In this document: positions 6,101 to 37,010 of the stretch, piece by piece
Numbering within the stretch: the first letter of the stretch is position 1
How the letters are laid out: each line of letters starts with the position of its first letter
Source of the DNA: Fragilaria crotonensis
Taxonomy: Eukaryota > Bacillariophyta > Fragilariophyceae > Fragilariales > Fragilariaceae
NCBI GenBank assembly: GCA_022925895.1
Contig: JAKSYS010000276.1
Span: 1 to 64,000 of the forward strand
DNA: 64,000 nt
Direction: 5' to 3'
Notes under the pieces: model-generated
What the model saw: only the letters and a program-made list of their open reading frames with translations
Database searches by the model: none
Told to the model about the DNA's origin: nothing
Program-made: the position numbers and the translations under genes

Positions 6101-8160
6101 CCATCGCACACAGCCCACTCTCCCGTAGGTTTGATACCAAGCGTTTTAAGCAAGCTCCGAACCACTTTTTCCGTCGCATGTCCAAATTTTCGATGCGCCT
6201 CATTGATGTCCATGGCTTCATTCTTCTGTTCTCGATGGTTTCGTCGCCTCGTTTCGCAATTCCTTCGGCATTAAAGCTTCTCTTTCAAACGAAACTCGTC
6301 GCGCTTTCAGATAAGTCATCCCGTCTGTTTCCTTTTCAAATTTCATCGTGTCACCAGATGGGTTCTTGAGCTCAGATTCGTCTTTCCTGCTCACAAACTC
6401 GTTCCCATTCTCATTCAAACGTCCCACACTGATCAGGTTTCGAGCGAAGTCGGGGATAACCATCACTTCGCAAAATCATCCGTTTATTGGAGTGTTTTTG
6501 CTCCAAACATAGATCTCCAATAGCTGTAGCTTTTAGGGTCTCATTGCTCCCAACTCTGACATGCTCTCCATCCAAAGTAGCCTTCAAATTAAACATGTTG
6601 TTGGTGGTCTTGGCAACATGAGTAGTGGCGCCCGAATCCATCAACCAGTTCTCAAAACCATCTTCATCATGGTCAGCAACAAACTTAGTTTTGCTGGAAT
6701 TCGCCATGAAAACTTCTTCGTCCCACTTCCAATTACTTAGGCCTCGCGGGGTGTCCATGCGGTATTCAGTCGTGTCGGATTCCTTTTTCTTGTCTTTTCG
6801 TCGTCGTTCCAGAAATCGTCTTCGTCATCGTCGTCATTGTCTTCGTGATTGCTTTCGTCATCGCTCGTTTCACACATATCAGCCCAACTCACAGGCTTTT
6901 TGATCCTTCGGAGATCTTCTTCGAGTTCGGTGTCGTTCTTTTCAATCCCATCGTAGTATTGACCAATTAATTCTTCTTCCGGTTCCGATACGTCGAGGGC
7001 AATAATCGTCTCGGCAAATTTCTTGTACTTGCGGTCCAACTCCGTATCAGGTTTACGTTTCCTGTTATCGTTCGCGATGTCGTTGAGAATCTCCAGGGCA
7101 AGCTTGTCCAGATCGATGTCGTTTTGCACCATTGGTTCCTCCCTGTTTCTCGTTTCGTGAATAGCCATTCCGACAAACATTCCCGAGTCGTTTCCTTGAG
7201 TTTTGCAGTGTTGCGCTCGGTGCCCAACTTGGCCACATTTGTAACATTTTCCCGAAAACGAATTTTGCACTCCATTGCCATTCTTGACATTGCCTCCATC
7301 TCTCTTCATTGCTCTTGCAGTCTCGTGCCTTGTGCCCTTGTTTTCCACACTTATTGCACTTCCCTTTAAATTGCCTCCAGCTGTTTCGTCCGCCGGTCGT
7401 CGTGAGCGCCAAATGTTTCTGATTTCGTTCCTCCTTTTTCGTCTCTCTTTTCTTGAATTCGTCCCTTAAACGGCTCAATGAACATCTGATAGTGCCCTGT
7501 GATCTCCTCAACGAAGTCTTGATGGTCCATACCTCACGCCCAATCTTGCCGTTCAACGAAGTGATGACGGCCTCGTAGCGTCGTTTTGGCAAACGTGCCA
7601 AAATTGTTGCTTGCATCTGTTCTTGGCTTCTCATGGTCCCATTTTCGCACTTACCGACCTCTCTGTTCAACCTTTCGAGCTCCAATATCCACATGTGCGG
7701 GTCCTCCATGTCATTCTTCATGTAACACTTTTCTAATTGAGTAGTCGCCTTCACAAGGTCTTTCGTCTTCTTCGAATCGTAGCGACTTTTCAACGCTTTC
7801 CACATGTCGTTCGCCGTCTCTTCGGCCTCAATAATCGCAAATGCATCGCCTTGGCATGACATAATCAAAAATTGCGAGCGTCGTTGTTCCACTTCTGCGC
7901 TTGTTCTTCCTCTCTTGTCAACTCCACAGCCCCTGGGCTTGGCAGCTTCAACTTTTCCAGCAGGCCCCTCTCAAAGCCTTTGGACGCAGCAAACACTTCT
8001 GCCTTCTTGAAGAACTCGCGGTTCCATACTGCCCTTCGTCTTGTCATTTCCCAAAGGGAATGACCTTGATCGTCGAGCGGACTCGACTTCATCGTCGCTT
8101 CGCTCGCCATCGTCGTCGTCGTTTGATCTTAACTCTCAAAAGCAATCGTTTTATAAAACG

Positions 8161-8708: not shown

Positions 8709-9372
8709 ATAAATTAATTGTGTGCGTGCGTCCGTCTGTTACGGAGTATGACCACTCTGGGGTACTGGATGAAATGAATACTGTCTGAATTTTTTCACTT
8801 CGCCAGGGTTGAGTACTGAAAGTAAACAGTAACAGTAAAAGTAGTGGTACGGAGTACGACCAGGTTGGGGGTACTGTACGTCCAGTTTCCTGTAGTAGAC
8901 ACTCCGATCAAATGTGAGGCACCCACTAGTTATAAATTAATTGTGTGTGTGCGTGCGTGCGTCTGTTACGGAGTATGACCACTCTGGGGTACTGTTGGAC
9001 TGTTACGTGGATTACATGTACTACAGGTCTACAGTACATAAACGGACGGTAATTTATGTTGAAACGACATGTGTTACGTTACTGAGCTACAATACTGTAC
9101 GAATTCAAAGTTACTGGATGGAATAATCATTGAATTTGCTGTGAACAGGTTGCTTGACAAATGCTACTGTAAAATATACCGTGCGATGAACTGCAATACT
9201 GGGGCATGATAAGTACCTGGTACTGTACTTCATGAAGTTTCCTACGTTGGTACCATGGTACTGCATACTGTAGGGGAAAAAAGTAGTGGTACGGAGTACG
9301 ACCAGGTTGGGGGTACTGTACGTCCAGTTTCCTGTAGTAGACACTCCGATCAAATGTGAGGTACCCACTAGT
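8709..9372. repeat. Two tandem units sharing a ~58-bp and a ~90-bp block
   Basis: Block R1 (TATAAATTAATTGTGTG through TACGGAGTATGACCACTCTG) occurs at 8709-8764 and 8931-8990. Block R2 (GTAGTGGTACGGAGTACGAC through GAGG.ACCCACTAGT) occurs at 8841-8930 and 9283-9372 and differs by a single base. The order R1-R2-R1-R2 shows duplication of a larger unit whose middle then diverged. It lies between the retrotransposon and the helicase-RdRP gene. The rest of 8670-9724 is GTAC-rich with no gene seen. Confidence 0.8.
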
Positions 9373-9724
9373 ATCATATATCGTTTCGCCTTCACGCCTT
9401 CACCGGTACAGAGCCTACCAAAAAATCAAAAATCCGTATCTTGTACTATACACCGTAATATATACTACCATCGAGCAGTACTGGAGTACTCCGTAACTCG
9501 TACTCCAGTACACTTATTAGCGAGTCCAACTTCTGTGTTGTGTTGACTTATTCACATCACTTCGTGTTCTGGCTTGAGAGTTGTGACAAAGCACCCTCAC
9601 AGACGCACCTCGTATCACAAAACGCGACAGTAGGAGGAGTGGACAACGACCCGTTGTTCCAACGCACACGAATCTACGTTTGATATACGCGACAATCGGA
9701 TGTAGCGGTACCTGCTACAAAATT

Positions 9725-12700
9725 ATGATACAGTCACGACGACAAACGTCCAGAACCGGTGGAACACAAGAACGCGTTCATTCAACAAGCAGCACGTCAC
9801 GGGTCGAAAAAGTGCAGCAGAGTCGCGAATCGTCGCTTCCAGGATGTGTCAATCCCAACGGGAATGATGACGAACGACGGCGCCTACAACAATCATCAGT
9901 GGGCGGAGTAGTAGACGTCCAACCCACGGGGCCGAAGGCGAATGAACCACAATTGGTACAGGAATGGCTTCAGTCACCACCACGCCTTCAGAACCCCTAC
10001 ACGGGAAAGGTGATCCAAATGCGTCTCCCAGAACGACTGCAACAAATGGTGCATGAGCTACAAGACCATTCAGACTGGTTCCAACTGGATGAGAATGGTT
10101 CGAGACGACAACCGGGCGTTCGGCAGGTGTGGGATGGACATGCAACGCCGATAACTGTGAGAACGCCAATGACGACTCGTCATCAACAACCACAGCCAGC
10201 CAATTATGGTTTTAGCTCCCCCGTGGTTCGTCATGGTGAACGGTTGACGACAGCTGCTTCGAGCGTTCCTCGAACCGACAGGGTAAAAGGTGATGCTTAC
10301 GAGGGATGCAATGAGTCCGTGAGGGAATACGTGCCTGCCTCGAGACTAGACGATTACTTCACATTGATCTGCGTCCCTGCAAAGCGAGGAGAAATGGGCA
10401 TAATGAAAGAAGAATTCGCAACAAAGGTGGGATTCACCAGATACAAGAGCTCGATCCAACAAATGGCATGCGAACACATTGCGAATCGTGAGGACACTGT
10501 AATGATTGCTCCTTGTGGATCCGGAAAAAGCTTGACATTTGTACATGCTGCACTCAGCTCAGGAGGAAAGGTCAACATTGTCATTGAGCCTTTCAACGCA
10601 ATCATTAAGAGCCATCTTATCGAATTGGAGTACTTGTCAGCCCACATAGACATGGAACAGCTCTTTAACGAAAAAGAGGCTAGAGAAAAAAATGTCCCAA
10701 GCAGCTACATCAGAATGCAAACGATTGTCAATGAGACCAAGGTAAGCCCCTTTCGGATGCTCACAATGACGAGACACCAGCCTGGCAATTGTCTCACGTT
10801 CTCGCTGAAGTTGAATGGCTGGACGTCGAAATCATTACTTCTTTTCGCTAGCGCAGAACTCATTGAAATGAGATTACCACAGCTGAAGGCCCTGGCTGAC
10901 GAAGGTTGCCTCTCCAGCATTACTGTGGACGAGATGGACATGATTGATCGAAGTCGTACAAGCGGCCGCGGCGTCTATACCAATCTGGCGGACCAACTTC
11001 GCCACCACTGCCAAGGAGTAAAGTTCATCTTTCTAGCCGGGACGGTCACTACTCGTGGATTGGCGAGCGTACTGCCAACCACGTCGATTGCTCAGGGCAC
11101 CCCAGATGCTGCGAAACCATTACTTTTGATCCACGAACGGGCATTGGCAGATTCCCTTTCGTTTCATGTCGAACTCAAGGTCAATGATGAACAGGTAAGT
11201 CTTGACATCAGGGATGCTCGGGTATGCATTGCACTTCTTCTAATGCTTGTCGTGGATGCAGGTAGTTGATCGAATAATTTGGTGGATTCAAAGTGTCAAG
11301 GGCCCGACGAAATGCCTATGCTATTGCCTAACCAAATTTAGTTGTAGAAAAATCGCTCAATTGCTTAATGATAGAGGAGTGATTGCTACGCCAGTGACAA
11401 GTGACGAGAATCCCGTCATGGTGGAAATCTTGCAGTCCTTTCGAAACCGACGCGTTTCCGTTCTATGCTGTACGGGAGTGTTGGGAAGAGGGTTCCACGT
11501 TGATGACATTCGTTTTGTTTTCCATGCTGCTGTGCCATTGGACCTCACGGAGTATATCCAGCAGACAGGAAGGGCAGGACGAGACGGAAAGCAAGCTCGC
11601 TGCGTTCTCTTCTACAAAGCTAAAGACTTTGAAACTGTTCGCAAAATTAAGATTACTCCCCTCGTCCCGGATTTCATTCGCGAGTCTGTTGCGGCGGACA
11701 TCGCAGAAGTGGCTTCGTATGCGACGTCCAGCAGATGCCGATATTCTCAATTGGCGTCCTCGGCAACAATCGAGCAATGTATGCCGTCCGACCAACAATG
11801 CACGAAGATTGCTCCTTGTGATAATTGTGTTGTCATGGGGTTCAAGACAACTGATGTCGGACAGAGACATTTGTTTGATTCCATCTGCGATCATGCTCAG
11901 GGTGATTACAGAGCGGATCAGACCTCACCAAGCCGCACAAAATCCATCGTGATCAGCCATGTACATGATCAGCCGATATCCGGCGATGCAAGTTTCTTGG
12001 TCGAGCATAAGACACAGGATGACGAGCACGAATTAGAGAGAGCATTTGACGAGATGTGTTCCATGGAGAGTCGCACAAAGATTGTCGATTTCGTTGCATC
12101 GCATGAACATGAAGTGCAAGGCGAAACAAACGTAGCAGCCACCTCAATCGACCCGCTGGATCGTTTGCAAGCTCCATTTTTGGTCCGGTTTGAAGCCGAA
12201 CGGTGAGTTGTGCTCCTGTGTCAAGAACTGCTTAGGGATCTGCATCTCAAGGTGTCTCCAAACAACAGAGCGCGACAGTGCAACGCCGAGTGTGAATCGA
12301 AGATAATAGGCCACCTTGGGTTGGAAGTTGTTGATCCTGGCGATTGTTTGGATGCCTGTAAATTCTTGACCAGTTTATTGCCCCGACGTCAAGCTGGGCA
12401 TTACGAATCTGCCATTCCCCGATCACCGGCAACTGAGAATCAACTCTCAGTTGAGTCATTCACCGGGGGTGCTGGATTGTATTTTCACGGTGAGCTGGAC
12501 GCCAACAATGTCATTCGTTTGTTGCCTCCGGAGCGGGCCAATAGCAGACGGATCTTTAGAAAGTTTGGCAGTCACCGCTTCCTTCATGTCAAGGTTTCTG
12601 GAGATCGCGCAGACGAATGCGTGATAAAAAAGTTCATGCAGAAAATTGTGCTTTGTGGTCGAACGTACGCTTATTTGTGGTGTAAGGCGCAGAAATCTCC

Positions 12701-14932
12701 CCAATGCTTTGTTCTGTTTGCCGAGCGCGGATTGGAATTACCGAGGAGTTGACGGCTGAGCAAGTTCGTGACTGGTGTATTCCGCGAGAGCTTAATCCTG
12801 GTTTGACAATTGCCAAGGAACTCAAGCGAATGAAGCTCTCCTTCTCAAAAACAACCCCGACATTTGTCCTACCAGAGGATTCAGTTGAGCTGATTGAGGA
12901 CATTTTCGGGGAAAGCGGAAGCATCATGACGGACGGTTCTGGGCTCATATCCAGGGGTGCACTTAACGAAGTATGGAAGTGTCATTATACGGGTTCAAGT
13001 TTGTGCCCTCTTTCATCGTTTCAAGGCCGCATTGGTGGCTTCAAAGGGATGTGGGTGCTTGATGATTCGCTTCCAGGTATTCGGATTCAATGCCGGCGCT
13101 CCCAGTTGAAGTTTAATCTTCCCATGAAATCTCTGGTTTCCACGTCCATTGATTGTGACACGAACGAAGATTCCATGTACGATACGGTAGAGGTGCATAG
13201 TTGGGATGAGAGAGCTGAGAAAGGATTCTTGGTAAGTGACTCTTTTCAACAATCACACTTGGTAACGAAGGGCTAATCATTTTGACAAATGCACAGTCAG
13301 TCCGACTCGTCCAGATTCTCGAGCGCAGGGGTGTCAGTCTGGATTTCTTCCTGCGATGCGCTGATGAGGGTCTGGACTGGCTAGACGAGCTGGATAGTAC
13401 TATGCCATCGAGCCAAGTAAAGTTCTATGGCGAGATTCGCAAAAGGCATAGCAACATTGTATTTACGAACGAGAAGGATGCGCAGACTAATGATGACATT
13501 CTCTTCCATATGGCGTCTGCGAAACTTGACCCAAGTGAACCCTATTGCGCAGACCTAAGACGAAACTTTGTGAAGAAAACTGCTAATAGTATGCGGAACA
13601 AGGTAAGGAGCACCTCAACATCTCAAATTCTTCTCATGACTCTGCTAACGATTTCGCGGCTCCGCGAAGGCTCGATATCCGCTGAAGGATTCTTGGCATG
13701 TGCGCATGCTTCCGGATCATATTCAACTTTTGAAGGAAGGGGAGGTCTATGTCGCCTTGCGAGACGATGAACGCGGGTCTCTCGATACCGCCACAGAGGT
13801 GCTTACCTTTCGCAATCCATCCTACTTTGACGGGGATTTAAGGAAGCTGACCTTGGTCCACTACGACGACTTGCTCATGCGCGCCGACGTAAGGGACAAA
13901 AAGGCTGGAAACGGAGGACGAGAGTGGGTCACCAAGTGCCAAGGCTTTTTTAGAAATTTGTCTGCAGCAATCGTGCTCAGTACACTTGGTTCTGAGAGCG
14001 AGGCTGATCGAATGAGCGGGGGCGATTTTGACGGAGACAAGGCGTGGATATGCTTTGACCGAGACCTTGTGGAGCAAGTGGTTGCCGCCGAACCAGCAAC
14101 CAGGCCTAGTCCGCCTCCAAAGGATAAATCCGAACATCGCCTTGTGGTCGATGCAAGCATGATTCATCGAATAAAATTCGCTCGTCATTTCAAGAACCAC
14201 CAGCGCCAACTCGGATTCCTGGCAACAACGCTTGACAGTGCCATGGATATGTTTGATGATTTCAGCACGAGTCCTCAAGTTGATGACATCGCTCGGCAAG
14301 CTTTTTTACAAGTTGATCATCCGTATCAACTTTGTGCACTCAAATTGGTAACCATAGACTTCTTGTGTGCGCAAAAGCAGCCTCATTGGAGTCTTAACCA
14401 AACACTTTATGCTGGCCACGAACACGACAAGGCTTACCGGTCCGAGAAGGCTATGGGAATATTGTGGGACTATGTCGAAAAGAAGATAGAACGAGCTGTT
14501 TCGCACCGCTACGGCTATGAAGTACCAAATAAACACATTTTGGAGCTGGCAGCCACTGCACGCAATCGATCGGATTTTACAGAGTTGAAGTCCAAGATGC
14601 AAAGTGCGGCTCTTGCCTATAAATCGGAATTGAAGGAATTAATGAGTGCGAAGGCGTCGTTGGAGAAGGTTGGAGACATGACTCAACTACGTGCGCGAGC
14701 TGCAAGGGCGAGTTTAGTTATTGACGCATTTGATTCGGAAGATGAACGAACCCTTGCTGCCGCTGTCCTGTACCAGGAATGCGGTGCTTCAACGGCGTTC
14801 GCGTGGAAGGTCGCGAGAGATTACTTGATTCTCACTGTCGTTCGAGCTCAGAATCGAGGGAAATCCTCCATGCCTTTCATAATGGATCCTGAGATCGCCA
14901 ATCTGGCATTTGGATACTCGACGAAGAAATAA
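9725..14932 (+). CDS. RecQ-family helicase fused to eukaryotic RNA-dependent RNA polymerase
   Basis: The N-terminal ~235 residues are low-complexity. The helicase follows: Walker A APCGSGKS (about residues 262-269), motif II VDEMD (about 378-382), LAGTVTT (motif III), then the second lobe with GVLGRGFHVDD and QQTGRAGRDG (about 570) and a RecQ-type zinc knuckle ending CDNC (about 653). After a linker come the cellular RdRP domain landmarks: SHRFLHVKV, TDGSGLISRGAL, SFQGRIGGFKGMW, and the catalytic loop GGDFDGDKAW (about 1322), which holds the three metal-binding Asp of the DxDGD signature. I infer exons 9725-10741, 10811-11194, 11262-12202, 12269-13231, 13297-13602 and 13670-14932; all five introns are 65-69 nt GT-AG. 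The frame slips by one base near 12728-12745 inside a conserved region (one base missing would restore it), so either an assembly error or a damaged allele. Likely role: making dsRNA from aberrant RNA in the nucleus, for silencing. A two-gene reading is less likely, since only a 66-nt intron-like gap with no stop or leader separates the domains. Start ATG 9725 is the first in frame. Confidence 0.85.
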
Positions 14933-15490: not shown

Positions 15491-16840
15491 TTAATCAGCA
15501 GCTCGACGGACAACACTAGTAGTGTACAATCGAAGGAAATCCGGGAACGTCAGACGACTCTTGTCCGCCACACTTGTGAATTTCTCAAACAAAGCATCCA
15601 CTTGTTCTTGAGGCGGCGGAATTCCCGCCTTTTCCAACGCCAAGTATGAGAACCCTTTCCTAACCTCGGACTTTGAAAGGCTCTTGTTCTTGTCAAAGTC
15701 AAACGTATAAAACAGACGCTTGACCCGGTTGAAGACTTTCGGGTCCATGCCCTTGAGTAACATAATGTCGACGTCCCTCTGCACATTGCTTGGCAAGGGC
15801 ATCAAACTCATGGACTCGGCATATTCAATCTGTCCGTTGGCATCCCACCAAGTTTTGAAGAAAACAATGAAATCATACACGGCATGCGCGACCATGCAGG
15901 GAACGATATCGCCACCGGTGAGAATGTAGACCAACCCGAACCAAATTCCATTGACAAGCTGAAGAGTCACCACGACCGCGTTTTCTTGGACGCTCGTTCG
16001 TGGCTGAGAATGCCCGAGTGCGAAAAGAATGGCTTGGCCAAAAAGTGGCACCAGTGGAAAGGGATCTGTGTAGAAATAGTGATCCAACAGTGATGGGATT
16101 TCCATCCGAAAGACGGACTCTTCACAAACACCCGTAATTGTACTCAGTACAAAGCTCATTACGAGGGCTTCCAGTGTGGAAGTGGTGGGATAGGGTGTTC
16201 CTCGGACGGCGACCGGAGGTAGGAAAACGTCTGGAGGTTTGGTTCGCCTCCCAAACAACGTCAGGACCATGGTGATGGTGCTGAAGTTAATATTAGCGAA
16301 TATGCGCTGATCCGAATCTTCGACCAGATTACCAAAGGCCACGATCGGAACTGCAGCAGCCGCGCCAATCAAGAGGCGATTGGGGGTGAGCCATAGGTCA
16401 ACGTCTCCAACTCCGCTCCAGCGAAAGATTTCGTTGAGATGTGAGAAGGCATCAAATCCGTCTGTTGCAAACAATAGCACAAGGGAGATGACGGTCGCAA
16501 TGGCTAGGATCAGACCTTGATTGATTAGGAGCGCTCGAATTAGCAGAATATTCAATCCGGACGATGGCCCTTTCTCTCCTCGATTCCTCTGTGCGAGACT
16601 CTCCTTGACATCAAAACCTGGAGGAGCACGTATTTGAACCTTCCGCAGCGTATCACTGTTGTCATCCTGATCAAGTTCGCGATACCAGAGACGTGACAGG
16701 TTCGTGCGGTGATGTCGTTCGTGGCGGATATCGGTACGTCGCCCAAGATGATGGGTCACTTGGAAGGCATCAGTTATTGCATGGTTCGCTTGTAGTGTAA
16801 GTAGTAGTATTGCAAAAGGAAGGCGAATAGTCTTCATCAT
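15491..16840 (-). CDS. CPBP-family intramembrane protease with C-terminal EF-hand, plastid-type leader
   Basis: Single exon, 449 residues, ATG at 16840. The N terminus is a signal peptide followed by Asp-Ala-Phe-Gln-Val, the phenylalanine-type cleavage context of diatom plastid preproteins. Several membrane segments follow. The CPBP (CAAX protease / bacteriocin-processing) motifs are present: CEESVFR (EExxxR, about residue 240), a Phe-Ala-Leu-Gly-His element, and HAVYD (HxxxD/N) near residue 320, the expected metal ligands. Near residue 380 the loop DFDKNKSLSKSE fits an EF-hand with acidic or polar residues at positions 1, 3, 5, 7, 9 and 12. So the protein is likely an integral membrane glutamic-type protease, perhaps of the thylakoid or envelope, with calcium sensing. 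Substrate unknown. Fusion to an EF-hand is inferred from one frame without gaps. Confidence 0.85.
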   Translation of the reverse strand: MMKTIRLPFAILLLTLQANHAITDAFQVTHHLGRRTDIRHERHHRTNLSRLWYRELDQDDNSDTLRKVQIRAPPGFDVKESLAQRNRGEKGPSSGLNILLIRALLINQGLILAIATVISLVLLFATDGFDAFSHLNEIFRWSGVGDVDLWLTPNRLLIGAAAAVPIVAFGNLVEDSDQRIFANINFSTITMVLTLFGRRTKPPDVFLPPVAVRGTPYPTTSTLEALVMSFVLSTITGVCEESVFRMEIPSLLDHYFYTDPFPLVPLFGQAILFALGHSQPRTSVQENAVVVTLQLVNGIWFGLVYILTGGDIVPCMVAHAVYDFIVFFKTWWDANGQIEYAESMSLMPLPSNVQRDVDIMLLKGMDPKVFNRVKRLFYTFDFDKNKSLSKSEVRKGFSYLALEKAGIPPPQEQVDALFEKFTSVADKSRLTFPDFLRLYTTSVVRRAAD

Positions 16841-20612: not shown

Positions 20613-22984
20613 ATGACGACCATAACGCATGTCGAAATGCATCGACTCTCATCCCATAGACAATCACACTCACACTCACGCCCGCGTTACCATGGCATTG
20701 TTCCATCACTACGTTCCTTCATGTTCATACTTCTGGTACTTGCACTAAACTGTGCCTGGAACATGATTGATGCGTTTGCCTTTACGACAGTTACTCAAGG
20801 TCATGGTCCCACAAGACGGAGTAAACCAACTCGGAATTCCGGTAATGCCAATCTCAATGTTCAATTTCGACAATGCCTATTGATACAATCAGGTTCACAA
20901 TCGGCGATTTCCACGACCAAGTCACTGATGCCGTTGTACTCGGCACTTCCTCCAGCCATTAGTATTGAGTCGTTAACTTGCTCTCACAATGGAGGAGAGA
21001 CCTATCAACTAAATGACGTATCCTACGTATTACCCCGAGGGTCCAAACAGGGATTAGTCGGCCGGAATGGATGTGGAAAGTCAACCTTGCTCAAGATATT
21101 GGCATCAGCCTGCTGTGGATATCAGGAAGAGGGAATTGTCTATCAGGGTAAGGTCACATCGCCCAGAGATGTAAGGGTCGGATTTTGTGAACAGGAACCG
21201 CTCATGCCAAGCGATGTTACCGTGGCCGATGCGCTTTTGGGTGTCGGAACCACAAATACTGAAACATCGGATGGTGCTCGATTCAATGTTGTGCGTACCT
21301 ATCGTTTGGCATTCAACCAAGCCGATCAAGATCCAGATGCCTTTGCTGCCGCATCGGCAGCCATGGATTCCTACAATGCATGGTCAGTCCTAACCAAGGC
21401 CGAAGAAATCGCATCCAAACTTAGAGTCCATCACTTGCAAGACAAGCCCTATCGTTCTTGTCGGGAGGGGAACGCAAACGTGTCGCACTCGCGGCGGCAC
21501 TCATCCAAGAACCTGACGTGCTGCTCCTCGACGAACCGACCAATCATTTGGACCTGGCAGCCATTCAGTGGTTGTCCGATCTCATACTTGATAATCGCAA
21601 ATTGACCATTTTGGTGGTAACACACGATCGGGCCTTTTTGGAAACGGTCTGTCGGACCATTCTAGAACTCGACCGGGGATCCTTGTATTCGTACGATGGA
21701 AATTATGCTGCCTTTCTCGAACAAAAGGAGGCACGGTTGGCCTTGGAAGATGCCGCCCTGCAGAATGCCAAGGCCAATTACAAGACGGAACTCGAATGGA
21801 TGAGACGACAACCACAGGCGCGACAAACCAAGAGCAAATCGCGCATTGATGCCTTTTACAAATTGCAACAGGCCACGAAACCGCGTGTGTTGGATCCAAA
21901 TTTAAATTTGGGTGAATTGCAAGGAGGGAGGCGTCGACTCGGAGGGACTATTTTGAAATTGAATGATGTTAGTCTTGCCTTTGGACCCGATAAGGTATTG
22001 TTGGATAACTTTTCCTATGATTTTATCAAGGGAGATCGCATCGGTATTGTCGGTCGCAATGGTGTGGGTAAGAGCACCTTCATCCGGATCCTGTACGGTG
22101 CTCAAGCCATTGATAGTGGCTCGGTGGAACGAGGTGAAACATTGGTCTTTGGAGTCTACGATCAAATGGGTCTCGTCCTCCTCCCGTCGGAAGAAACAAC
22201 CACGACAGTCATGCAGTTTGTGCTCGATCAAGTCCAAGACGCACAGGGTGAGGCGCTGTCGGAAGCACCCGGAAAGGCACGCAAATTGTTGACCCAATTT
22301 GAGTTTCCACGACCACGATGGATGGAGCGTGTTTCCATGTTGTCAGGAGGGGAACGACGGCGTTTGCAACTGCTGTCAGTGTTAAGTAAGAATCCCAATT
22401 TTCTTATTCTTGACGAACCGTCGAACGATTTGGATCTCAACACATTATCGGCACTGGAGAGTTACCTGCAAGACTTTGAAGGCGTTTTGGTTATTGTGAG
22501 TCATGACAAATTCTTTACCGACAAGGTGACAGATCATTTGTTTGTCTTTGAGGGAAATGGTGCGGTGAAGGATTACCTCGGGTCCCTCTCGGAGTACGCT
22601 GAGTGTCTCATTGAACAAGAAAAGACCTTTTTCTCAAACACCAATAACAATGGCAATAGCGACAACTCGTTGAGTGAGATTGAGGGCAAGAGTAAGTCAA
22701 CCTACAAGGAAGACAAGGTGGCGAGGAACGATCGTCGCAACACCTTGCGAAAGCTAACGAAGGAAATGGACAATACAGAAAACTCCATTACAAAACTGAA
22801 AGCACGTGCAGCCGCCCTCCAAAGTGAAATTGAGTCCAGTGATGGCGGCGAGGGGTGGTCTGTCTTGGCCGATTTGACAGCCAAATGGAATGCCGTCAAT
22901 GAAGAGATCGACGAGAAGGAAACACGGTGGTTGGAGTTGGCAGAAGCCATCGACGAGCTCCAGGAAGAATTTGCGGATGCCTGA
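20613..22984 (+). CDS. ABC-F ATPase, Uup/EttA-like, plastid-type leader
   Basis: Two ABC ATPase domains and no membrane domain, so an ABC-F translation factor and not a transporter. Domain 1 has Walker A GRNGCGKST, signature LSGGERKR and Walker B LLLDEPTNHLD. Domain 2 has GRNGVGKST, LSGGERRR and LILDEPSNDLD. A charged interdomain linker (about 21700-21900) and a C-terminal coiled coil with many Lys/Glu match bacterial Uup. The leader has a hydrophobic run then IDAFAFTT, an ASAFAP-like plastid import site; the start may be 20613 or an internal ATG at 20721. The frame shifts by one base at about 21455, exactly between Tyr-Arg-Ser and the first LSGGE, where no intron fits; one missing base explains it. 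Likely role: ribosome-associated ATPase in the plastid, descended from a bacterial gene. Confidence 0.87.
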
Positions 22985-23217
22985 GAGTGTCCGATGGGCA
23001 GGGTATGTCATGTGTCATGGTGATGTCGCTGGATCGAACTCGAATTCGTTGTGTCCGAGTTGCCTTTTCAGAGCGCGACACACGGAAGTTGTAAACATAG
23101 AACATCCATAACTTAGGATAGGGCACACTCCTATTACGCTCGAGACGAAACGCCAGGGGTTTCTATATATTTTTAGGTTTCCCACCTGTTGTCGGCGTGG
23201 TGCAATCCGCCAGCATT

Positions 23218-26200
23218 TTAATTTAAGCGCCCGTCACGACTAATGTGTGCTTCGCTCTTGCTGTCAATTTTGGATGACGTTTGATGGGTGAGCTTTTCAT
23301 TGACATCGAACTGGCACTGGCAGTCACATCCGCTGACCGGACAAGTGTCATGATTGGCGAACCACCCGACCAGGTGATGGGCGTGTCCTCCATGCTTGCA
23401 CCTCATGCACCATGTGAACCATTCGGCAAACGGAAGGCTCGCCAACGACGACGTTACACCATTTGCCGTCCCGAGATTCATCAATTCCGTGTAGGGATTT
23501 GAACACCCCAATGACAGGAGGCAAATGGAGCACCGGGGCAATGGCTTTCGGCATCGAGGACAGCACGACAACACGTTCTTAGCACGCGATAGCCATTGGC
23601 TTGTAATACCGTCTTGCTTGCGTGCTCCAGAGAGGGATACAGAGCAATAGTTACAACGCGCTTCCAGTTGTCCTGGATTTGATGCCGCAAGGACAAAATC
23701 TGGGTCCACTTGTTTTGCGTTTGGCTTTCCAATCATCCGACTATCTTGCCTGGTAGTTTGCGAAAGCTTTTTCAGCAACTCCGATCGGTCAACATCAAAC
23801 ATCGCACGAGCTTGCCACATTTGCCATATATTGAGCAACCCTCGATAGGAATCCAACCACTCGGAACAAACCCTCCGCTCCACTTTCCACGACAATGGCA
23901 TATTTACTCGGCACATCACCAATGACGCTGTTTGAACATCACCTGTCTTGTCGACAAACGACTGAAGAATTTTGATTCCATCCAGCGTAAGGCCGGTAAG
24001 TAACAGACCCTCGACGTTGCCTTCTTCTTGACACTGAACGATCCACTTGTGAAGCTGCGTCTTGAGTTCGTTGCGACGCAAGAATCGGCAAGCAAAACCA
24101 ACACGGTCACACAGACTTAACTTGACATCGTCGAGGATAACGCTGAGTCGTTCGGCGTCACTCCTGGCCAAGAGGAACTGTAGGAGGGCACGGAGGTAGG
24201 CAACACCTTCTGAATGCTTGGTGTCCACTTGCAAGTCCGGCCGTTTTAACAACCTTGAACAAGCATTTTCCCAAACATTGGAATTTATCTTGCTGTATCC
24301 AGCGATACAAATAGAAATCACCTGCAAGAGGCTCGAATGATTGTTATCATTGTCGTTGCTGTTCTGGTCCGAGTCATGTATTTCGCTCAGGGCGGCCCCG
24401 TCATCGAGTGCCTGCACCGCAGCTGCAAAATTGTCATGCCACACTGCCAACGCGGCCGCGCGTTCAAATTCGCGTCGTTCGTGACATTCTTGGAGTATTT
24501 GGTTGGTACCGCTGTTGCTGTTGTGAGTACTTTCTTGAAAATCGCTTCCCGTAGTTGTGGCCCATCCACAAGCTGTTAATGCCGCTCGTCGAGCATTGGA
24601 ATCGTAAAATACCAAATCGAGGCTTTCTGCCTCGACGACGACGGCAGCAGTAGAATTCGTAGTAGTACCATCATCCGATGACAGCGAGTCTGGCACTAGT
24701 GACGACGAGGACTGCAGATCCATTTCCAACAGGCGCCATACTCCGCCATCCGTCAAGGTCATGTTGGGAAACGGAGTAGTAGTGGTTGGATTTGAAGTAG
24801 GAATGTTTTGTTGTTGATGTTGCTGATGGCTCTCCATCCGGGCAATCCATCTCCATAGTTCAACCAATGAAAGATTCTTGTTGTTCGGAATTTTATCATC
24901 CTCCAATGATGGAGTGGATAAAACATCAATATTCATCACGGCATCCATGGAATAACGCTGGCCTTCATCCCCACCTCCAGCTCTGGTTTTCATAATAATG
25001 GAAATGTCGTCGTCATTGTCATCATTGATCGTAGAAGTTCTGATAGGATGATGGTTCATGTTCCATAGATGATCTTCGAATGCATGAACGATTCGTCCAT
25101 CGCGTTTGGATACGGCCAAGGGTGCTGTGGTGTGTTTCGACACGTCAATGACGGATTTGTCCTCCAAAACTACCAAGAATCGTTCTTGATCGGGCGCCAA
25201 CATGGCCATGTCGAGAATGGGGAGCGGGGCGTAGGTTTGGCCGACCAGTGCGGGCTTGGACGTGGTGACATTGTAATGCAATATGCGATTGTCCATGGCG
25301 ACGGACAAGACGCCTGGTCGGCTCCATTCGATAGTCGTAGGATCTTGGTTGTGATCCAGTTTGATTTCGGCGAATGGAGTTTCCAAACTTCGCAAATCCC
25401 ATAATTGGATTGGATTTGAGGTGTTATTATGATTGTTCCCAAAGGCTGATGTTGATTTTGAAAAGGTCGCCAGTGTAAACTGATTGGCTCTCATTCCGTG
25501 TACGGATTCAGCTTCCCACACGGTAATCGGCGGTGAGGAGCTGACACGAAAATCGTATAGCATCAATGGTCTCATTTGACACCCAACGGCCAGGGTCTGT
25601 CCTCCCTGGAGCCACTCCAAGGAAGTGACAGCCGAGTTGTGACATACCTTGAGCAAGGGACTGGATGTGGATTGTGTGACATCCCACACGAGGCACCCGA
25701 AATCTGTGGCGCGAGGTTTGTTCCTGGCAACAACATGTGGTCCGCCGCCGCCACCACCACCACTGGTCGTACTGTTGTTGTTGTTGTTGCTGTTGCCGCT
25801 CCCTCCGCCAGGTCCCTGTCCCGCTGTTCCTGTTGGGCCGGTAAATCCACCACCACCCATATTGAGTCCCAGTGCGACGTGATTGGTAATGTTGGGCCGC
25901 CATGCGACTGCAGTAGCGAGACGCTTGTTGCGACCGATTGAAAATTGTTCTTGCGATGCCGACGATAATGATGATGCTGTTGTTGTTGCATTGTGCGAAT
26001 TTGCTTCCGAAAATGTGTGAATGCATAAATTTCCAGTTGACAATCCAGTTGCAAGTCTCGAGGGCGATGGAGACCAGGAGAGACAAGTGGCTGTGATGGA
26101 TGGTCCTAGTTGTGGACTGAGCCTGGAAACGATTGTTTGTTGTGTTTGGCACATTCTCCCTTGAAGTCTTTGCTCGAGTGTGGATTGAAAGTATAGTTGT

Positions 26201-26709
26201 CTAACCTCGCAGAGCATGGCACCATGTTTGGCTCTTTGCAAAAGGTCTTCATCTTGAAGATTAATGGCAGCAAAGAGTTGTGGCTCGTGATCCGAGGGAT
26301 GTTGATGTGGAAAGGCACGAATAGCGACCCGTGACTGCGATTGTGATATTGATGCAGGTTGCAGTGGTTGAAGTTGCTGCTGCGATTGTCTCACTTGCTG
26401 TTGTTGTTGATGATGCAGTTGCAGTTGCTGTTGCAAGGACTGCATTGTATTGGCATTGGCACTGACGTTGGCATTGGAATTAACGTTGACACTGCCGACA
26501 TTAGCATAGTGCGGTGCGCTGGAGAGTGAACTCCGAACGATTACTCCAGATCCTGATCCATTGGATGATTGTGACGGTGCAGGAGGGTACGGGGCTGTTG
26601 GAATGCGAGTGCCCGACTGAGACTGAGACTGCGACTGAGACTGTACGCCTGTGGTGAATGTGCTGTAAGGACGGCTAAAGCTTGGGTGATGAGGATCGTA
26701 CGATGACAT
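23218..26709 (-). CDS. MIOS/Mio (Sea4) homologue, GATOR2 subunit
   Basis: Single exon of about 1163 residues starting at the ATG at 26709; the frame stays open upstream only on a TTG. The first ~200 residues are Gln/Ser/Asn-rich. A WD40 propeller follows (for example FGCLVWDVTQS, SLEWLQGG, IQLWDLRS, IEWSRPG), with a Gly/Asn-rich insert near residues 295-330. A helical solenoid takes up the middle. The C-terminal ~130 residues form the diagnostic zinc-binding RING-like end: CNYCSVSL, CCPRCRKPLPRCSICL, WFTWCMRCKHGGHAHH and CPVSGCDCQC. This end is highly conserved in metazoan MIOS and yeast Sea4. MIOS works in GATOR2, which relieves GATOR1 repression of TORC1 at the lysosome/vacuole when amino acids are available. 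The low-complexity inserts are typical for diatom genes. Confidence 0.9.
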   Translation of the reverse strand: MSSYDPHHPSFSRPYSTFTTGVQSQSQSQSQSGTRIPTAPYPPAPSQSSNGSGSGVIVRSSLSSAPHYANVGSVNVNSNANVSANANTMQSLQQQLQLHHQQQQQVRQSQQQLQPLQPASISQSQSRVAIRAFPHQHPSDHEPQLFAAINLQDEDLLQRAKHGAMLCEVRQLYFQSTLEQRLQGRMCQTQQTIVSRLSPQLGPSITATCLSWSPSPSRLATGLSTGNLCIHTFSEANSHNATTTASSLSSASQEQFSIGRNKRLATAVAWRPNITNHVALGLNMGGGGFTGPTGTAGQGPGGGSGNSNNNNNSTTSGGGGGGGPHVVARNKPRATDFGCLVWDVTQSTSSPLLKVCHNSAVTSLEWLQGGQTLAVGCQMRPLMLYDFRVSSSPPITVWEAESVHGMRANQFTLATFSKSTSAFGNNHNNTSNPIQLWDLRSLETPFAEIKLDHNQDPTTIEWSRPGVLSVAMDNRILHYNVTTSKPALVGQTYAPLPILDMAMLAPDQERFLVVLEDKSVIDVSKHTTAPLAVSKRDGRIVHAFEDHLWNMNHHPIRTSTINDDNDDDISIIMKTRAGGGDEGQRYSMDAVMNIDVLSTPSLEDDKIPNNKNLSLVELWRWIARMESHQQHQQQNIPTSNPTTTTPFPNMTLTDGGVWRLLEMDLQSSSSLVPDSLSSDDGTTTNSTAAVVVEAESLDLVFYDSNARRAALTACGWATTTGSDFQESTHNSNSGTNQILQECHERREFERAAALAVWHDNFAAAVQALDDGAALSEIHDSDQNSNDNDNNHSSLLQVISICIAGYSKINSNVWENACSRLLKRPDLQVDTKHSEGVAYLRALLQFLLARSDAERLSVILDDVKLSLCDRVGFACRFLRRNELKTQLHKWIVQCQEEGNVEGLLLTGLTLDGIKILQSFVDKTGDVQTASLVMCRVNMPLSWKVERRVCSEWLDSYRGLLNIWQMWQARAMFDVDRSELLKKLSQTTRQDSRMIGKPNAKQVDPDFVLAASNPGQLEARCNYCSVSLSGARKQDGITSQWLSRAKNVLSCCPRCRKPLPRCSICLLSLGCSNPYTELMNLGTANGVTSSLASLPFAEWFTWCMRCKHGGHAHHLVGWFANHDTCPVSGCDCQCQFDVNEKLTHQTSSKIDSKSEAHISRDGRLN

Positions 26710-27489
26710 TTGCGTTGTTGTCGTGTTGTCGCAGTGATGCCACAATGCCAGAATGCCACACTCCTCTTCAATGAAGCAAGTCGGTCAGAACCAAAGACTA
26801 CTAGTCGAGAACTGTACTCCTTACTCTGAAGTCGAAACTTGTGGGTCGCTGTCGTCGATGTTCAAGACACAGGAGATCAGATCAATTGTGAGTCGAATCT
26901 TCTGATGATCTGGCTGCTGCACACCCACATCTTTAGCTGCGATCTGTGATATCTGAGTCCTTCGATGCGACGTAACGTACAAGTACGGAGAACCAGGGTA
27001 CTGGGGTACAGATTACTCGTTACAGTGTATAAACAGTAGGACAGGACGTGAGTTATGTGAATTGGGTGGACCCGTGTGATAACCGTCAATTCATTCTTGT
27101 GCTGTAAAAATAGCTCCCAAATGTTGCGTTGCGGACTGCCGATTGGCTCAATGGGCCTTCAAAACCCGCGTGGTCCAGTCTAGTAGAAGTATGCCCATCC
27201 ATCTGAGCTCTCGACACATGAAAAACGCGAGCGTTTGCACATGTTTCCACCGTTCATCATCAGAATGTACAGTGTATATTTAATTGGAAGTCTATAACAC
27301 AAAGAGAACATGAGGACAGTATCATCGCATACGCAAACGCATCACTACCTGGTACTACTATTTACTTAGTACGATAGTGGATAGTATACTCCGATTGTAC
27401 AAGTACCCTGTGCCGAAGGGAAGGACACAACATGTTTTCGGATAAGTGTGACGAAGAAGAAGCAATCAGCAACTGCAACAAATGCAACA
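26710..27489. other. Divergent intergenic region (MIOS / MscS)
   Basis: Upstream region of both genes. Contains scattered GTAC and TACTCCG strings near 27000-27020 and 27330-27400. An upstream ATG at 27432 opens a short frame out of phase with the MscS start at 27490, which could dampen its translation. Nothing else recognised. Confidence 0.5.
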
Positions 27490-30400
27490 ATGGAGTCCTC
27501 ATCTCAACCTCCACCACCTAGTCCACCTTTAGCATTGCCTCCATCACGAGTGGAGAGCTCCAACAGCATTTTAATTGGGGAAGAATTTGTCGATTCACAG
27601 TTCAACTCAGATCTTCCCACTGTTCACTCAGGATTGGATGAGAGTGATGAGTGCAGCAATACCAGTAGCGACAATGACAGCAACAACAGCCGCAGAAACA
27701 ACAGTCCAAGACAAGTTGGTAATGGAACTGGCACGGGAGGTACTGAGATAACATCTCAGTCAGCTCATGCTGTTCATGTCACTGATCCGGATGGACCCAC
27801 ACAACAACAACAACAAACCAACTGTCGACCACCGCTCGCACCGACAGTACCCAATACTATTACACACTCTCAAACAATCACATCCGCAACAACACTGTCG
27901 CCCACGCCTTCGACGTCACCAATTAATCGGCACGGTCGAACCACGTCGCAAGGAGACCAGAGTACAGGTGCCATGTCGGCTCTAACAGATCCTCTTGTGG
28001 AACTGGACTTGGATATGAACATGACCACGGACAATGATCACAATAACAACAATCGCAACGACCAACGCATCGAACATCCTCAACGGGATCGATGTGTCTC
28101 GTGGGGTAACCATTGTGAGGATCAAGCATCCAAATCTATCTTGCAGCCCATTCTTACGACCAACAACAATAGCACCTATAGCAACAGCAACAAAAACAAC
28201 AAAAGCGAACCACAACAAGTTTTGCTAATGCCACTGCCCCCACCTCGCTTTTCTCAACCGCAACGAGACCAATCTGTTCGCAAATCCCAACTTGTAAGAA
28301 AGTTAACAATCACAGACGTTGTCGATCCCATCGAATCGGAAGCCGAAACAGCAATCCTCGCTGCCCTGGAGAGTCGCGAGAAGGAACTCAAGGGACAAGA
28401 AACATCCACGGCCGCGCTTGTTCTACCCAACATGACACTGGAAGCAGTATCCAAATGGAAAGCTCTTGCCACGGAAACCAACGAGGACGCCAATGAAAAT
28501 GAAAATCCAAATGATGCTACGGCTTTGACGAATGCAAGTCAAGTTGCCGCCGTGTCACGGCAACCAAGCATGCGCACTGCGTCGTCCTCCACCTCGTCCG
28601 CAGCCGTGCCAACTCACGATTCCAGCTCTGGTAAAACAACCATTGATCAGCAATCGTCCGTGGAGCAGCAGCGCAGAACTGCTTCTCGGGAAGCCAGCAA
28701 GAGAACATTGGGAGCATCCGCAGGTTCATCTTCGGAGAGTCGACGGCAATTGAAACCACAACCGATATCAAGACCTCCACCTATCCACCGACGCACTACC
28801 ACTTCGGCGAATCTTTCCAGTCTTGCCACCATGATGCGCAACATTCAACAAACAGAACCTCCCACAAGTCCAGGTGCAACAGGCAGTTCCAACAATCCTC
28901 CGGAATCCGGTGTCACCAGCGCCGTGCCGGCCGAGCGACGTACTCCAGCCCCTATACCCGTGGCAATGCCCAAAACACAGTCAGATGCCTTGGCCAACAA
29001 TGCAGCACTATTGTATCGAGGAAATCGCGTCCTTGCTGCCACACAGGATCACCCGGAATCGTTGTTGCTTGTCAGAGGCAAAACCAGCGGAAGCGCAACC
29101 AACAACAATAATCACACCCACATTATCACTGCCGGAGCTTCAGATCCAAAAAAGAATGACGACGTCATGGTTGCCGTGGCAGTTGACGGTGAAGACAACA
29201 AGATAGAACCAGATACAAGCGATGACGTAGAAAACGGTGGTACATTCACCAGTGATGAATTCGAGACTGGTGGCAATGGAAAAAACCGAAAAAGCAGCCG
29301 GGCCGAAGTTATGATTCGCAAAACCGTGAGCGCTGCAAAAGAAGATTGGGAGTCCATACGACACTTTCTTCGTGATCAAAAGGATATTGCTTTCACCTAC
29401 GCAAAGCATATGTTTTGCTTTCTCATTTTCCCAGCAACGTGCGTCGCCGCCCTCCTCTTTTACATTCTTTCCAATCCCCCAATGCAAGTTGGGTACAATC
29501 CCGTCAACAAGACATTCCCATCGATATCTTGGTTCATCCTTTTTCTCTGCGTCCGTCAGGCCATTACGTTCAGTCTCGCCAGGGCGACGGAGATTCTCTT
29601 GATTGATTTGGTGGCCCTGAAAACGCGCCTCATGATTCGCGTGTTGGGACCGCTCATCACCCTCGTGGTGGTACAATCCAAGGGATGGCCATTCATTATC
29701 ACGTGGTGGGCCGTGTACGACCTTTGCATGCTTTCCGGGGAAGGCGGCTTTGCGAATCATTGGATGTTCTATCAGGACATCATTACAATGTTCAATGATA
29801 GCAATCCGAGCGGGAATATCACTAACAGTGACTGGAATTATAGGATCCTCTATGTGGCCTTGGTCCTTGGTCTCGTGGTTGCGCTCAAGAGATTCTTTGT
29901 TGGGCTTTATCTCGGTGGTCGACAATATTGTAAGTATGAACAACAACAGCAACTGCAGACTTGTAGCGACAACTCGATTCTCACCGTCAGCGACGTGTTG
30001 TGATTGCAGCAATCTACGGCTCGAAATTAGCGGCTGTGATCCATAAGATGATTGTCATTAGTCAGGTTGCGGGATTGGCACGACAGCTGGAATGGGAGGC
30101 GAGGGAAGAGCTCACGGACAAGAGAGCCGCTACAATTCATGACAGCGTTTTCAATTGGGAGTTTCGCGGGTTTGATGGCCTTGAACGACGAGGACGAGGA
30201 AGGTATGGACGACGAAGGTCCGGCGACTCCCGACAACTCGGTAAGGCCGGACCCGACAGCGAGTCAGAAGGCTGCTGCGTATTCACGAGTCTTGAGCGCA
30301 TCGGAGAAGTTTCGAATCGCCAATATGTTAGAAAGCTGGGAAGAGCCTCAGGAAGACCAGAGTGTTGTAAGTGAAATTGGCTGGATATGATGTGTTTACT

Positions 30401-34514: not shown

Positions 34515-35609
34515 ATGATATCCAACGAACTTTCACTTCCGTCGCCGCAGCACAATATCGAAGGTATCTTCCTTAAGAAAGGAGTCGTCACCGTGACTAT
34601 CGACAATTTGACGATCGCTTTGGTAGTCGCATCGATCTTGTACTCATTCTGCCTGATACTTTCCTATCGCAAGCTCGTGGGACTTCATCGTATTCGACCA
34701 CATTTATCAACCAAGAGCTTGCTTCTCATGAGTGTTGCCGTCGTGTGTGCTGTCCGAATCATGACAATTTTGGGAGTCGCCAGTATGAATATTGCAAATG
34801 TTCGAGCGCACTACTCGTTGCAACCGATTGACCGGCAACATAGCAGCACTACCGCTGGCACTGCAAGTAGTACGGGATATGATCGGAACCAAGCATTCTA
34901 CGACAAGTCAATGACTGTGCTCTTTGATTTGCCCAATTGTGTTGTGGTGTCCACTTATGTGCTGCTGACGCTTGTATGGGCAGAATGCTTCTTGGAAAGT
35001 CGATTTCACACCGAATCCATATCGCATTGGAAGAACGCATGGTTACAACTCTACATGTGGTTCAATTCCGTCCTCTATGGCTGCCAACTTGTATTGTACT
35101 GTTCCATCTTTTTGGCCACGGACAGCATCGTCCGCACCGTTCTTTACGCAGGGATAACGGGGATCAACTTTGTCGCTGTCTCCATGGTGACCACACTCTA
35201 CTTATACCTGAATGTCCGCTTTTCGGGCTTTCCGTACAGATCGCAGCATTCTCGAGACTCCCTCCACAAAATATCATCTGTCATGACGCTATGGTCTGTT
35301 ACGCGCATCATTTGGGGAGTGGCAACGCTATGCGTGTTTTTATTCAACATTGAACTACTTCAGGATTCTAATACTCCGTTTTGGTCCTTCGTCGTGCTAC
35401 TGCTGCTCTTCTTTGTCTGTGAAATTGTTCCCATAATCGCCATGCTGGATTACTCCTACATGAACATGATCGGCATGACTGAAGCGAACGACACCTTTGA
35501 ATGGATGCATGATCACATTCTCACGTCGCCTCTCTTGGTTGAATTTCCATCAGACCAGCCGCTCGAATCGAACGACGAAGAGGACAATGGAGCAACGACC
35601 CTGCAATGA
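34515..35609 (+). CDS. TOM1/TOM3/THH1-domain seven-transmembrane protein
   Basis: Single exon, 364 residues, ATG 34515. Seven hydrophobic segments; the best match is the THH1/TOM1/TOM3 domain: FDLPNCVVVSTYVLLTLVWA followed by ECFLESR corresponds to the family's conserved Phe-Pro...Ser-Thr-Tyr-x-Leu-Leu...Trp-Ala-Glu region. In plants TOM1 and TOM3 sit in the tonoplast and are used by tobamoviruses as replication anchors; animal relatives (GPR137) act at the lysosome on Rab/TORC1. The tail is acidic. It lies between the two SUI1 copies. Confidence 0.7.
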   Translation: MISNELSLPSPQHNIEGIFLKKGVVTVTIDNLTIALVVASILYSFCLILSYRKLVGLHRIRPHLSTKSLLLMSVAVVCAVRIMTILGVASMNIANVRAHYSLQPIDRQHSSTTAGTASSTGYDRNQAFYDKSMTVLFDLPNCVVVSTYVLLTLVWAECFLESRFHTESISHWKNAWLQLYMWFNSVLYGCQLVLYCSIFLATDSIVRTVLYAGITGINFVAVSMVTTLYLYLNVRFSGFPYRSQHSRDSLHKISSVMTLWSVTRIIWGVATLCVFLFNIELLQDSNTPFWSFVVLLLLFFVCEIVPIIAMLDYSYMNMIGMTEANDTFEWMHDHILTSPLLVEFPSDQPLESNDEEDNGATTLQ

Positions 35610-35806
35610 TCTTGTCGAGTCATGACCTTCAGTTGCTGCGAAAAATGCCACAGCTTTTACACCATGACATGGCGGAAGCGTTGTCAAGTCGGGTATCCCT
35701 GGGTGATACGTTGTCAAGTCGGGTTTTCCTGAGTGATACGTCCGTATGCGTAGCTTGAAGATAGCCATGCTTTGGTCCTTGACGATCGTTTCAGTACAAA
35801 ACCTTT

Positions 35807-37010
35807 ACTATTTGTACCAAAGTGCACAACGGTATCGTACTCCATTATTCCCTGACAACAGGACAGAAAAACAATCGCCATGGTGCCAGGATCACTCCTA
35901 CTCTAGAGCTCTATAATCCCTGGTACCTTGCACTGACGTTTGGCGTGACAAGTGAAGACATCAAGACAATGGAAACGACGGGCTCCATCGGAAGATGCAG
36001 GCACCCATCAATCTCATCAGTTTGTTTATTCTTGTTAATTTGTTTCACGTCGGATAGGTTGGGACATTGTGATGCCTTTGTGATTTATCCTGACGTTCAC
36101 GCGAAAGTGTTTTTGTTTGTACATTCAACTAGACATCTGTCACAACAAATAGAACGTACACGACAACAAAGAACAACGTGTCTCTTTCTGGCAAAGCAAA
36201 AGATCAAAATCAACGAAAATCTCGTTGGATCCATCAACTCGGATGGGATTTTTGAAGGACGCGACAAGGTGGAACGACCCCAATCATCTAAATTGGGAGT
36301 TGCTTCCAAAAAGTCGTGGAAAGCTGGAAGCAGTAGTGGTGCTGTTGATGATGCGCAGGACCTACGAACAGCAAATGGAATCATGGATAGTACATTATCG
36401 ACTCGCATTGCTGCTCCGGAACAGGAAGCGATCCAAGTTTTAGAGGCGAAACGTGGCTCAAAAGTTGTAACGATTGTTCGGTGAGTTCCAGAATAGTGAG
36501 CTACCGTAATATTACGTTCTCAAAACAGACCATGTTACCCTATGGCCATTCCTGTTCCTATAGTCATGGTTTTTGCGCTTGAGATGTGCGACAACTCATC
36601 GACTTTATATTTCCAGTGGAATGTCATCTCCTATGGAAACCAGAAAAGATATACTGAAAAGTCTCAAGAAGTCTCTGGGTGTTGGTGGCACGTTGGTAGA
36701 GGGCGTGTTGGAAATTCAAGGAGCCTATGCTGCCAAGACAGTGGAGGCGTTACACAAGAAAGGCTACGTCTTGGCCAAAATGATTGGAAAATGATTCCAT
36801 CTGCTGCTGCCAGTCGGAATATGAGTACGACGTAGCTTAAGTAGGTAGACTATATTTGAAACATTATGTCACGTCCCATACTCCGAGTACTGAAGTACGA
36901 CAATTGGTGTACCATCAAATCGAGAAGACCTGTCGTCGTTTGCATCTAATTATTGGCCTCACGAATGGACAATTCTCTTCCCATGATTTGAAATCCATTC
37001 ATCGCTTGCA
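35807..37010. repeat. Segmental duplication, copy 2 (parent locus)
   Basis: Partner of 32309-33551 in direct orientation, about 3.5 kb apart. Here the right end runs on into the intact RRM gene, so this is the original location. Compared with copy 1 it lacks about 33 bp inside the SUI1 linker and a few bases in the 3' flank. Confidence 0.9.
35969..36794 (+). CDS. SUI1/eIF1-domain protein, copy 2, with plastid-type leader
   Basis: Exons 35969-36480 and 36617-36794, intron 136 nt, 229 residues. The N terminus has a hydrophobic run (SVCLFLLICFTS) and then Cys-Asp-Ala-Phe-Val, a signal peptide with a Phe-type cleavage site as in diatom plastid preproteins. A transit-like basic/Ser-Thr segment and a linker precede the SUI1 domain (VVTIVRGMSSP, SLGVGGTLVEG). 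Cyanobacteria and many bacteria have YciH, a small SUI1 protein, so a plastid initiation factor of cyanobacterial origin is plausible. It points towards the RRM gene, which ends 150 bp beyond its stop on the other strand. Confidence 0.82.

Follow-up and report, generated by a model that had tools for sequence, protein, structure and literature searches.

How RNA-dependent RNA polymerases (RdRPs) find the aberrant templates that initiate silencing is an open question, to which the answer obtained in Neurospora by genetics and pull-downs involves a RecQ helicase. The subject here is a locus of the diatom Fragilaria crotonensis at positions 9725-14932 of a 64,000-nt stretch (the window) on contig C199 (JAKSYS010000276.1) of a 62-Mb assembly of 881 contigs, in which an earlier note, made from the letters alone, had read a RecQ-type helicase and a QDE-1-type RdRP as one gene and a link between the two partners of Neurospora quelling. 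The locus is predicted to be a six-exon gene encoding a RecQ-family helicase with a zinc site followed by a QDE-1-type RdRP (Table 1). Sequence comparison confirmed that the fusion is real and showed that it belongs to a family, other organisms also having sequences of this kind. These outside members, a break in the reading frame of the window copy and a cluster with an Argonaute gene go beyond the earlier note.

Pfam placed the DEAD and Helicase_C domains in frames 9725-12206 and the PF05183 RdRP domain in frames 12207-14932. The claim that both belong to one gene was upheld by a paralogue with the same domain order and by P0002, a transcript-derived frame of 2028 residues, labelled complete, that contains DEAD, Helicase_C and RdRP domains; P0001 (2248 residues) and P0076 (1842 residues) likewise carry helicase and RdRP in single frames. 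In the first RdRP tree the clade comprised 17 rows from outside the genome, and a helicase-zinc-linker profile, built partly from P0001, P0002 and P0076, matched 10 of these in the RdRP frame, giving ten fused clusters (P0001, P0002, P0003, P0076, P0099, P0100, P0101, P0105, P0106 and P0111). Six of the seven rows without a profile match (P0090, P0091, P0092, P0094, P0098, P0108 and P0112) are predicted frames of 468-903 residues, which could represent fragments of genes with introns; in P0112 the zinc-site pattern can be recognised by eye. A helicase-like stretch in P0073 (18.7 bits with Pfam, below cut-off; 29.7 bits with our own profile; no match in NCBIfam) was not counted as a fusion. That two neighbouring genes were joined in error could be argued from an in-frame stop at 12204-12206, found likewise in the paralogue on contig C335, but any phase-2 intron whose donor reads GTRAGT necessarily creates such a stop, and in the closely related P0100 (51% in the RdRP) the junction is free of in-frame stops. 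P0002 and the nine other clusters run through this junction, the two parts are only 66 bp apart, and the frame of the RdRP, open from 12207, offers no ATG until 12636, already within the domain. The motif PFLxxFExxR, which opens the RdRP module (RNase H-RdRPs included), lies upstream of intron 3, so that this intron falls inside the RdRP module and not, as had been proposed, at the boundary between the domains. The two-gene reading was therefore rejected as extremely improbable.

The assignment of the helicase to the RecQ family was borne out by profiles, motifs and zinc cysteines. The DEAD and Helicase_C domains scored 37.2 and 54.9 bits, both above cut-off, and in NCBIfam the C part, including the zinc region, ranked TIGR00614 (recQ_fam) first at 96.5 bits, against 55.6 bits for the best non-RecQ model, DbpA. 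For the N part, TIGR00614 (25.5 bits) came second to DpdF (27.5 bits). Because the gene was scored in pieces, both TIGR00614 values for the window lie below 219.8, the cut-off for a whole protein. The same model came first for P0001 (204.7 bits), P0002 (191.8 bits) and P0076 (192.5 bits), all below the curated cut-off. The best solved-structure match of P0001 was BLM (E 3e-43), BLM and RecQ5 being the best solved relatives, and Dicer was absent from the best 60 of 139 matches. The window, the C335 paralogue, P0001, P0002 and P0076 all retain the GxGKS form of Walker A together with the DE pair, and motif VI (GRAGRDG in the window) is conserved in the window, the paralogue and five of the six others that cover it, P0002 deviating. 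Motif II is not DEAH, reading DEMD in the window and paralogue and DEFD in P0001, P0002 and P0076; four of the five ordinary RecQs checked read DEAHCVS[QA]WGHD, and the fusion clade is without the aromatic loop. Of the RecQ, RQC-zinc and RdRP profiles that the earlier note had proposed, RecQ and RdRP matched, whereas PF16124 gave no score at the zinc site of the window; P0111 scored 27.6 bits. Weak support came from a low-confidence structure model of P0105, in which a winged helix follows the zinc site, and the linker in relatives probably forms such a fold; profile-profile comparison for RQC in the linker was not significant. In a helicase tree of 28 of the 32 prepared rows, four RecQ rows from this genome being left out, the fusion helicases formed a clade of their own (support 100/100) apart from ordinary RecQs. 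They are like BLM and RecQ5 in Walker A, GRAGRDG, the four-cysteine zinc site and, in relatives, the probable winged helix, and differ in DEMD/DEFD, in the lack of the aromatic loop and of an HRDC hit, in the C-terminal RdRP and in their separate clade; by sequence, the fusion helicase is a divergent RecQ clade. A Dicer-like identity was rejected on profiles and motifs (GSGKS, DEMD, RecQ profile), no direct alignment with the Dictyostelium and oomycete helicase-RdRPs being made.

The RdRP half proved to be of the kind proposed. PF05183 scored 24.1, 98.6, 20.1 and 104.4 bits in four downstream frames of the window, three of the four over the cut-off of 23.8, and the catalytic DFDGD agrees with the DxDGD pattern and is intact (GGDFDGD, 14018-14038). 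In searches with a structure model of the P0092 RdRP (predicted local distance difference test score, pLDDT, 78.6), QDE-1 took ranks 1-14 (Foldseek E 2e-31) and plant RDR2 ranks 15-21; judged on this relative, the predicted fold is nearest QDE-1. Support for the RecQ-RdRP clade was good, not decisive, with an SH-like approximate likelihood ratio test (SH-aLRT) value of 91 in the first RdRP tree and 93/91 in the second, from which the place of the window was taken. The sister clade is that of the RNase H-RdRPs, represented by five rows in the first tree (SH-aLRT 100) and by two in the second (100/100). P0077, P0107, P0109 and P0110 have RNase H (RVT_3) fused to RdRP, and thus likewise an enzyme of nucleic-acid duplexes in place of RecQ; a UBA domain is also listed in P0107 and P0110, and P0093, in the same clade, lacks RNase H. 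Six of the 27 protein-search hits (P0095, P0096, P0097, P0102, P0103 and P0104; 466-497 residues) were placed in no tree, and the helicase profile found nothing in them. A further protein, P0013 (2643 residues), combines a RecQ half (TIGR00614, 180.6 bits) and an RdRP (PF05183, 257 bits) in one frame; it differs in having a DEAH helicase placed among ordinary RecQs, an RdRP outside the clade, long branches for both and a cysteine-rich stretch between them, and is probably a second, independent RecQ-RdRP fusion. Three further places, C34:82417-83145, C34:148198-148580 and C280:12434-12813, carry incomplete copies of the 3' part of the RdRP that share 73-77% identity with the window.

The paralogue occurs on contigs C335 and C239, which share 99.2% identity across 6,970 columns and are probably haplotypes. 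On C335 it has six exons and an unbroken frame of 1862 residues. In pieces of more than 100 residues it is 60-73% identical to the window in the helicase, one helicase piece being 90 residues long, and 67-82% in the RdRP. All five intron positions are identical; introns are 44-67% and exons 67-80% identical, intron 3 at 44% lying between exons at 67% and 80%. In the six-exon model the introns are all GT...AG and 65-69 nt long. The single splice-consistent model of the earlier note needs correction, exon 4 having 963 nt against 964 in C335 and the frame being broken as assembled by a base missing at about 12734-12742. An intron at this point was excluded, the paralogue being continuous there and the alignment gap a single base. 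The proposed start at 9725 is putative; homology with the paralogue begins near 10290, and no homologue was found for the low-complexity N-terminus before it. The N-terminus of the C335 copy (34585-35767) is weakly similar to P0001, P0002 and P0076 (E 3e-10, 2e-8 and 5e-4); its identification as BAH was dropped, Pfam giving nothing over cut-off.

The window copy could be a duplicate in decay, shortened at its N-terminus and frame-broken, in which case the fusion protein is lost and only the C335 copy works; the matter is close to evenly balanced, the chance of decay being put slightly under one half. The missing base points to decay, as do the C335 N-terminal domain, for which a search of the window gave no match (best E 0.51), and a linker about 25-30 residues shorter than in C335. 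Against this, the other exon frames are free of stop codons, and the ratio of non-synonymous to synonymous substitution rates (dN/dS) was 0.216 for the helicase (589 codons) and 0.126 for the RdRP (837 codons). All seven blocks taken singly fell between 0.08 and 0.25, those of the helicase exons between 0.15 and 0.25; with dS near 1 these ratios are rough. The end branches in the second RdRP tree were 0.11 for the window and 0.13 for the paralogue. Contig C315, which stops at base 59,072 of its own sequence and does not reach the RdRP, is 97.7% identical to the window over 2,833 columns, with 46 gap columns, four of them insertions; C239 differs from C335 over 6.1 kb by 12 deleted columns and one inserted, some in exons. 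Haplotype contigs thus differ mostly by small deletions, which are frequent in the assembly, and faulty assembly may account for the missing base; the substitution pattern indicates that selection kept the window copy.

The genomic setting of the paralogue points to RNA interference (RNAi). On C335 a second RdRP (RdRP2; frame 21549-25055, +), an Argonaute (frames 26168-29648, -) and the RecQ-RdRP gene (34585-40535, +) lie within 19 kb, the intact fusion gene being 4-5 kb from the Argonaute and 9-10 kb from the second RdRP; all three are also on C239, and C335:21549-40535 is a predicted RNAi gene cluster. This Argonaute, the only one found, has PIWI and PAZ over cut-off and MID under, and its likely N-terminal frame, assigned by eye, extends to 30812. 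The contig of the window gave no PIWI match. Paired RNase III domains were found at loci on C544 and C658.

For the literature, statements are taken from the available portions of the papers cited. Lee et al. (2010) reported that QDE-1 copies single-stranded DNA (ssDNA) more strongly than RNA, that QDE-1 with RPA turns ssDNA into double-stranded RNA (dsRNA) and that QDE-1 contacts RPA only when QDE-3 is present, and cited BLM as capable of unwinding DNA:RNA hybrids (PMC2950127). The proposed link with the quelling pair gains from this dependence on QDE-3 and from the QDE-1-like model of the P0092 RdRP. Neurospora QDE-3 (RecQ) and QDE-1 (RdRP), which serve quelling and qiRNA, are nevertheless two proteins; the diatom protein is predicted to be one and has a motif II unlike that of ordinary RecQs. 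In Entamoeba, RdRP1 and Ago2-2 were both found with a RecQ, as a low-confidence hit (PMC8546589). Helicase-RdRP fusions, in the same order in one polypeptide, were described as "relatively uncommon" in Dictyostelium, peronosporomycete oomycetes, Hydra and Nematostella; by their description these are DEAD-box proteins with GxGKT and DE[C/A]H or DEVH, whereas the diatom helicase is a RecQ with a zinc site, GxGKS and DE[M/F]D. Their helicase, called Dicer-like in an earlier report, forms a clade separate from that of Dicer (PMC4791657). Diatom RdRPs have been reported, the available portions making no mention of a fused helicase (PMC3145265, PMC3155517, PMC4247016). No RecQ-RdRP fusion appeared in titles or abstract openings among the matches listed by a full-text literature search, most subscription journals lying outside its coverage, or in the available portions of PMC10080066, PMC2848206, PMC12624956 and PMC4513859.

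These findings suggest, with roughly even confidence, that the fusion is a one-protein equivalent of the QDE-3/QDE-1 pair that starts silencing at exposed nuclear DNA. Its helicase part would bring the polymerase to exposed or DNA:RNA-hybrid nuclear DNA (stalled forks, repeats, transposons) and open the DNA or strip the hybrid; the polymerase would copy the freed strand into dsRNA, and this, once cut by Dicer-like enzymes, would serve the Argonaute whose gene neighbours the intact copy. Fusion would make the coupling of helicase and polymerase permanent. Beyond the anatomy of the protein, we infer that RecQ and RdRP would act jointly in diatom dsRNA production. Several observations weigh against this scheme: the frame break and shortened linker of the window copy, the DEMD/DEFD motif and lost aromatic loop, with which DNA unwinding is not assured, the absence of Pfam HRDC or RQC matches in the fused proteins scanned, and P0092, which lies inside the clade without a helicase. 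This last is a transcript-derived frame labelled complete; it starts within the linker and represents a transcript cut short or else a genuine exception.

The altered motif II and aromatic loop bear on two further explanations. They could mean that the helicase acts on RNA, moving along the template and aiding the polymerase through structure or in silencing amplification with no DNA step. This appears unlikely: relatives keep the zinc site and probably the winged helix, which bind DNA in RecQ, and the best solved relatives are BLM and RecQ5. It does have a precedent in fusions of RdRP with a non-RecQ helicase (PMC4791657). A similar role on RNA may be supposed for the Dicer-like helicase-RdRPs. 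The same changes could mark a dead scaffold that merely recruits the polymerase, a quite improbable reading given the retained Walker A, DE pair and motif VI and the low dN/dS over the helicase exons. A viral origin was considered as well; P0076 against viral contigs gave five pattern matches and no relative, and nothing was in support.

Returning to silencing at exposed DNA, a broader version can be offered only tentatively. One RdRP lineage would have been fused at least twice to enzymes of DNA or DNA:RNA hybrids, RecQ and, in the sister clade, RNase H, because R-loops or exposed DNA would be the sites at which such polymerases directly produce dsRNA. The diatom protein, clustered with an Argonaute and a second RdRP, would then suffice by itself to initiate silencing where DNA is damaged or repetitive. 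A natural fusion under selection in several lineages suggests that the helicase and polymerase activities form one step, and it offers a single protein for testing RecQ/RdRP coupling. It is also a defined candidate for the first silencing step in diatoms; their Dicer-like proteins of the RNase III type are reported, in the portions available, to have no helicase domain (PMC3145265, PMC3155517).

Table 1. Predicted features of the RecQ-RdRP gene, in window coordinates; helicase motif names are those that we take to apply.
Feature	Position	Strand	Remark
Exon 1, low-complexity N-terminus, then start of RecQ helicase domain 1	9725..10741	+	start codon unproven
Motif 0	10442-10477	+	exon 1
Walker A APCGSGKSL	10508-10534	+	exon 1
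Motif Ia	10574-10603	+	exon 1
Intron 1 GTAAGC...CTGAAG	10742..10810	+	acceptor inferred from phase and paralogue
Exon 2, with motifs Ib, II (DEMD, 10922-10954) and III of the helicase	10811..11194	+	
Intron 2 GTAAGT...ATGCAG	11195..11261	+	paralogue intron at same position
Exon 3, helicase domain 2 to first RdRP-module motif	11262..12202	+	
Motif VI QQTGRAGRDG	11559-11588	+	exon 3
Four-cysteine zinc site CRYSQL...C...C...CDNC	11736-11828	+	exon 3, pattern-based
Winged-helix linker (probable), shortened	exon 3, between zinc site and RdRP module	+	
First RdRP-module motif APFLVRFEAE	12171-12200	+	exon 3
Intron 3 GTGAGT...CAACAG	12203..12268	+	phase 2
Exon 4, N-terminal half of RdRP	12269..13231	+	one base short against paralogue near 12734-12742
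Intron 4 GTAAGT...GCACAG	13232..13296	+	
Exon 5, RdRP middle part	13297..13602	+	
Intron 5 GTAAGG...GCGAAG	13603..13669	+	
Exon 6, RdRP catalytic half including GGDFDGD (14018-14038), through stop codon	13670..14932	+	

Around the gene, a Copia gag frame lies upstream at 7065-7892 of the window, a short repeat occurs in two near-identical copies just upstream, at about 8840-8930 and 9282-9373, and a CAAX-protease-like gene was seen at 15491-16840. Elsewhere in the assembly, the silicon transporter family PF03842, which marks diatoms, gave matches of up to 646 bits, with three in one frame on C97.

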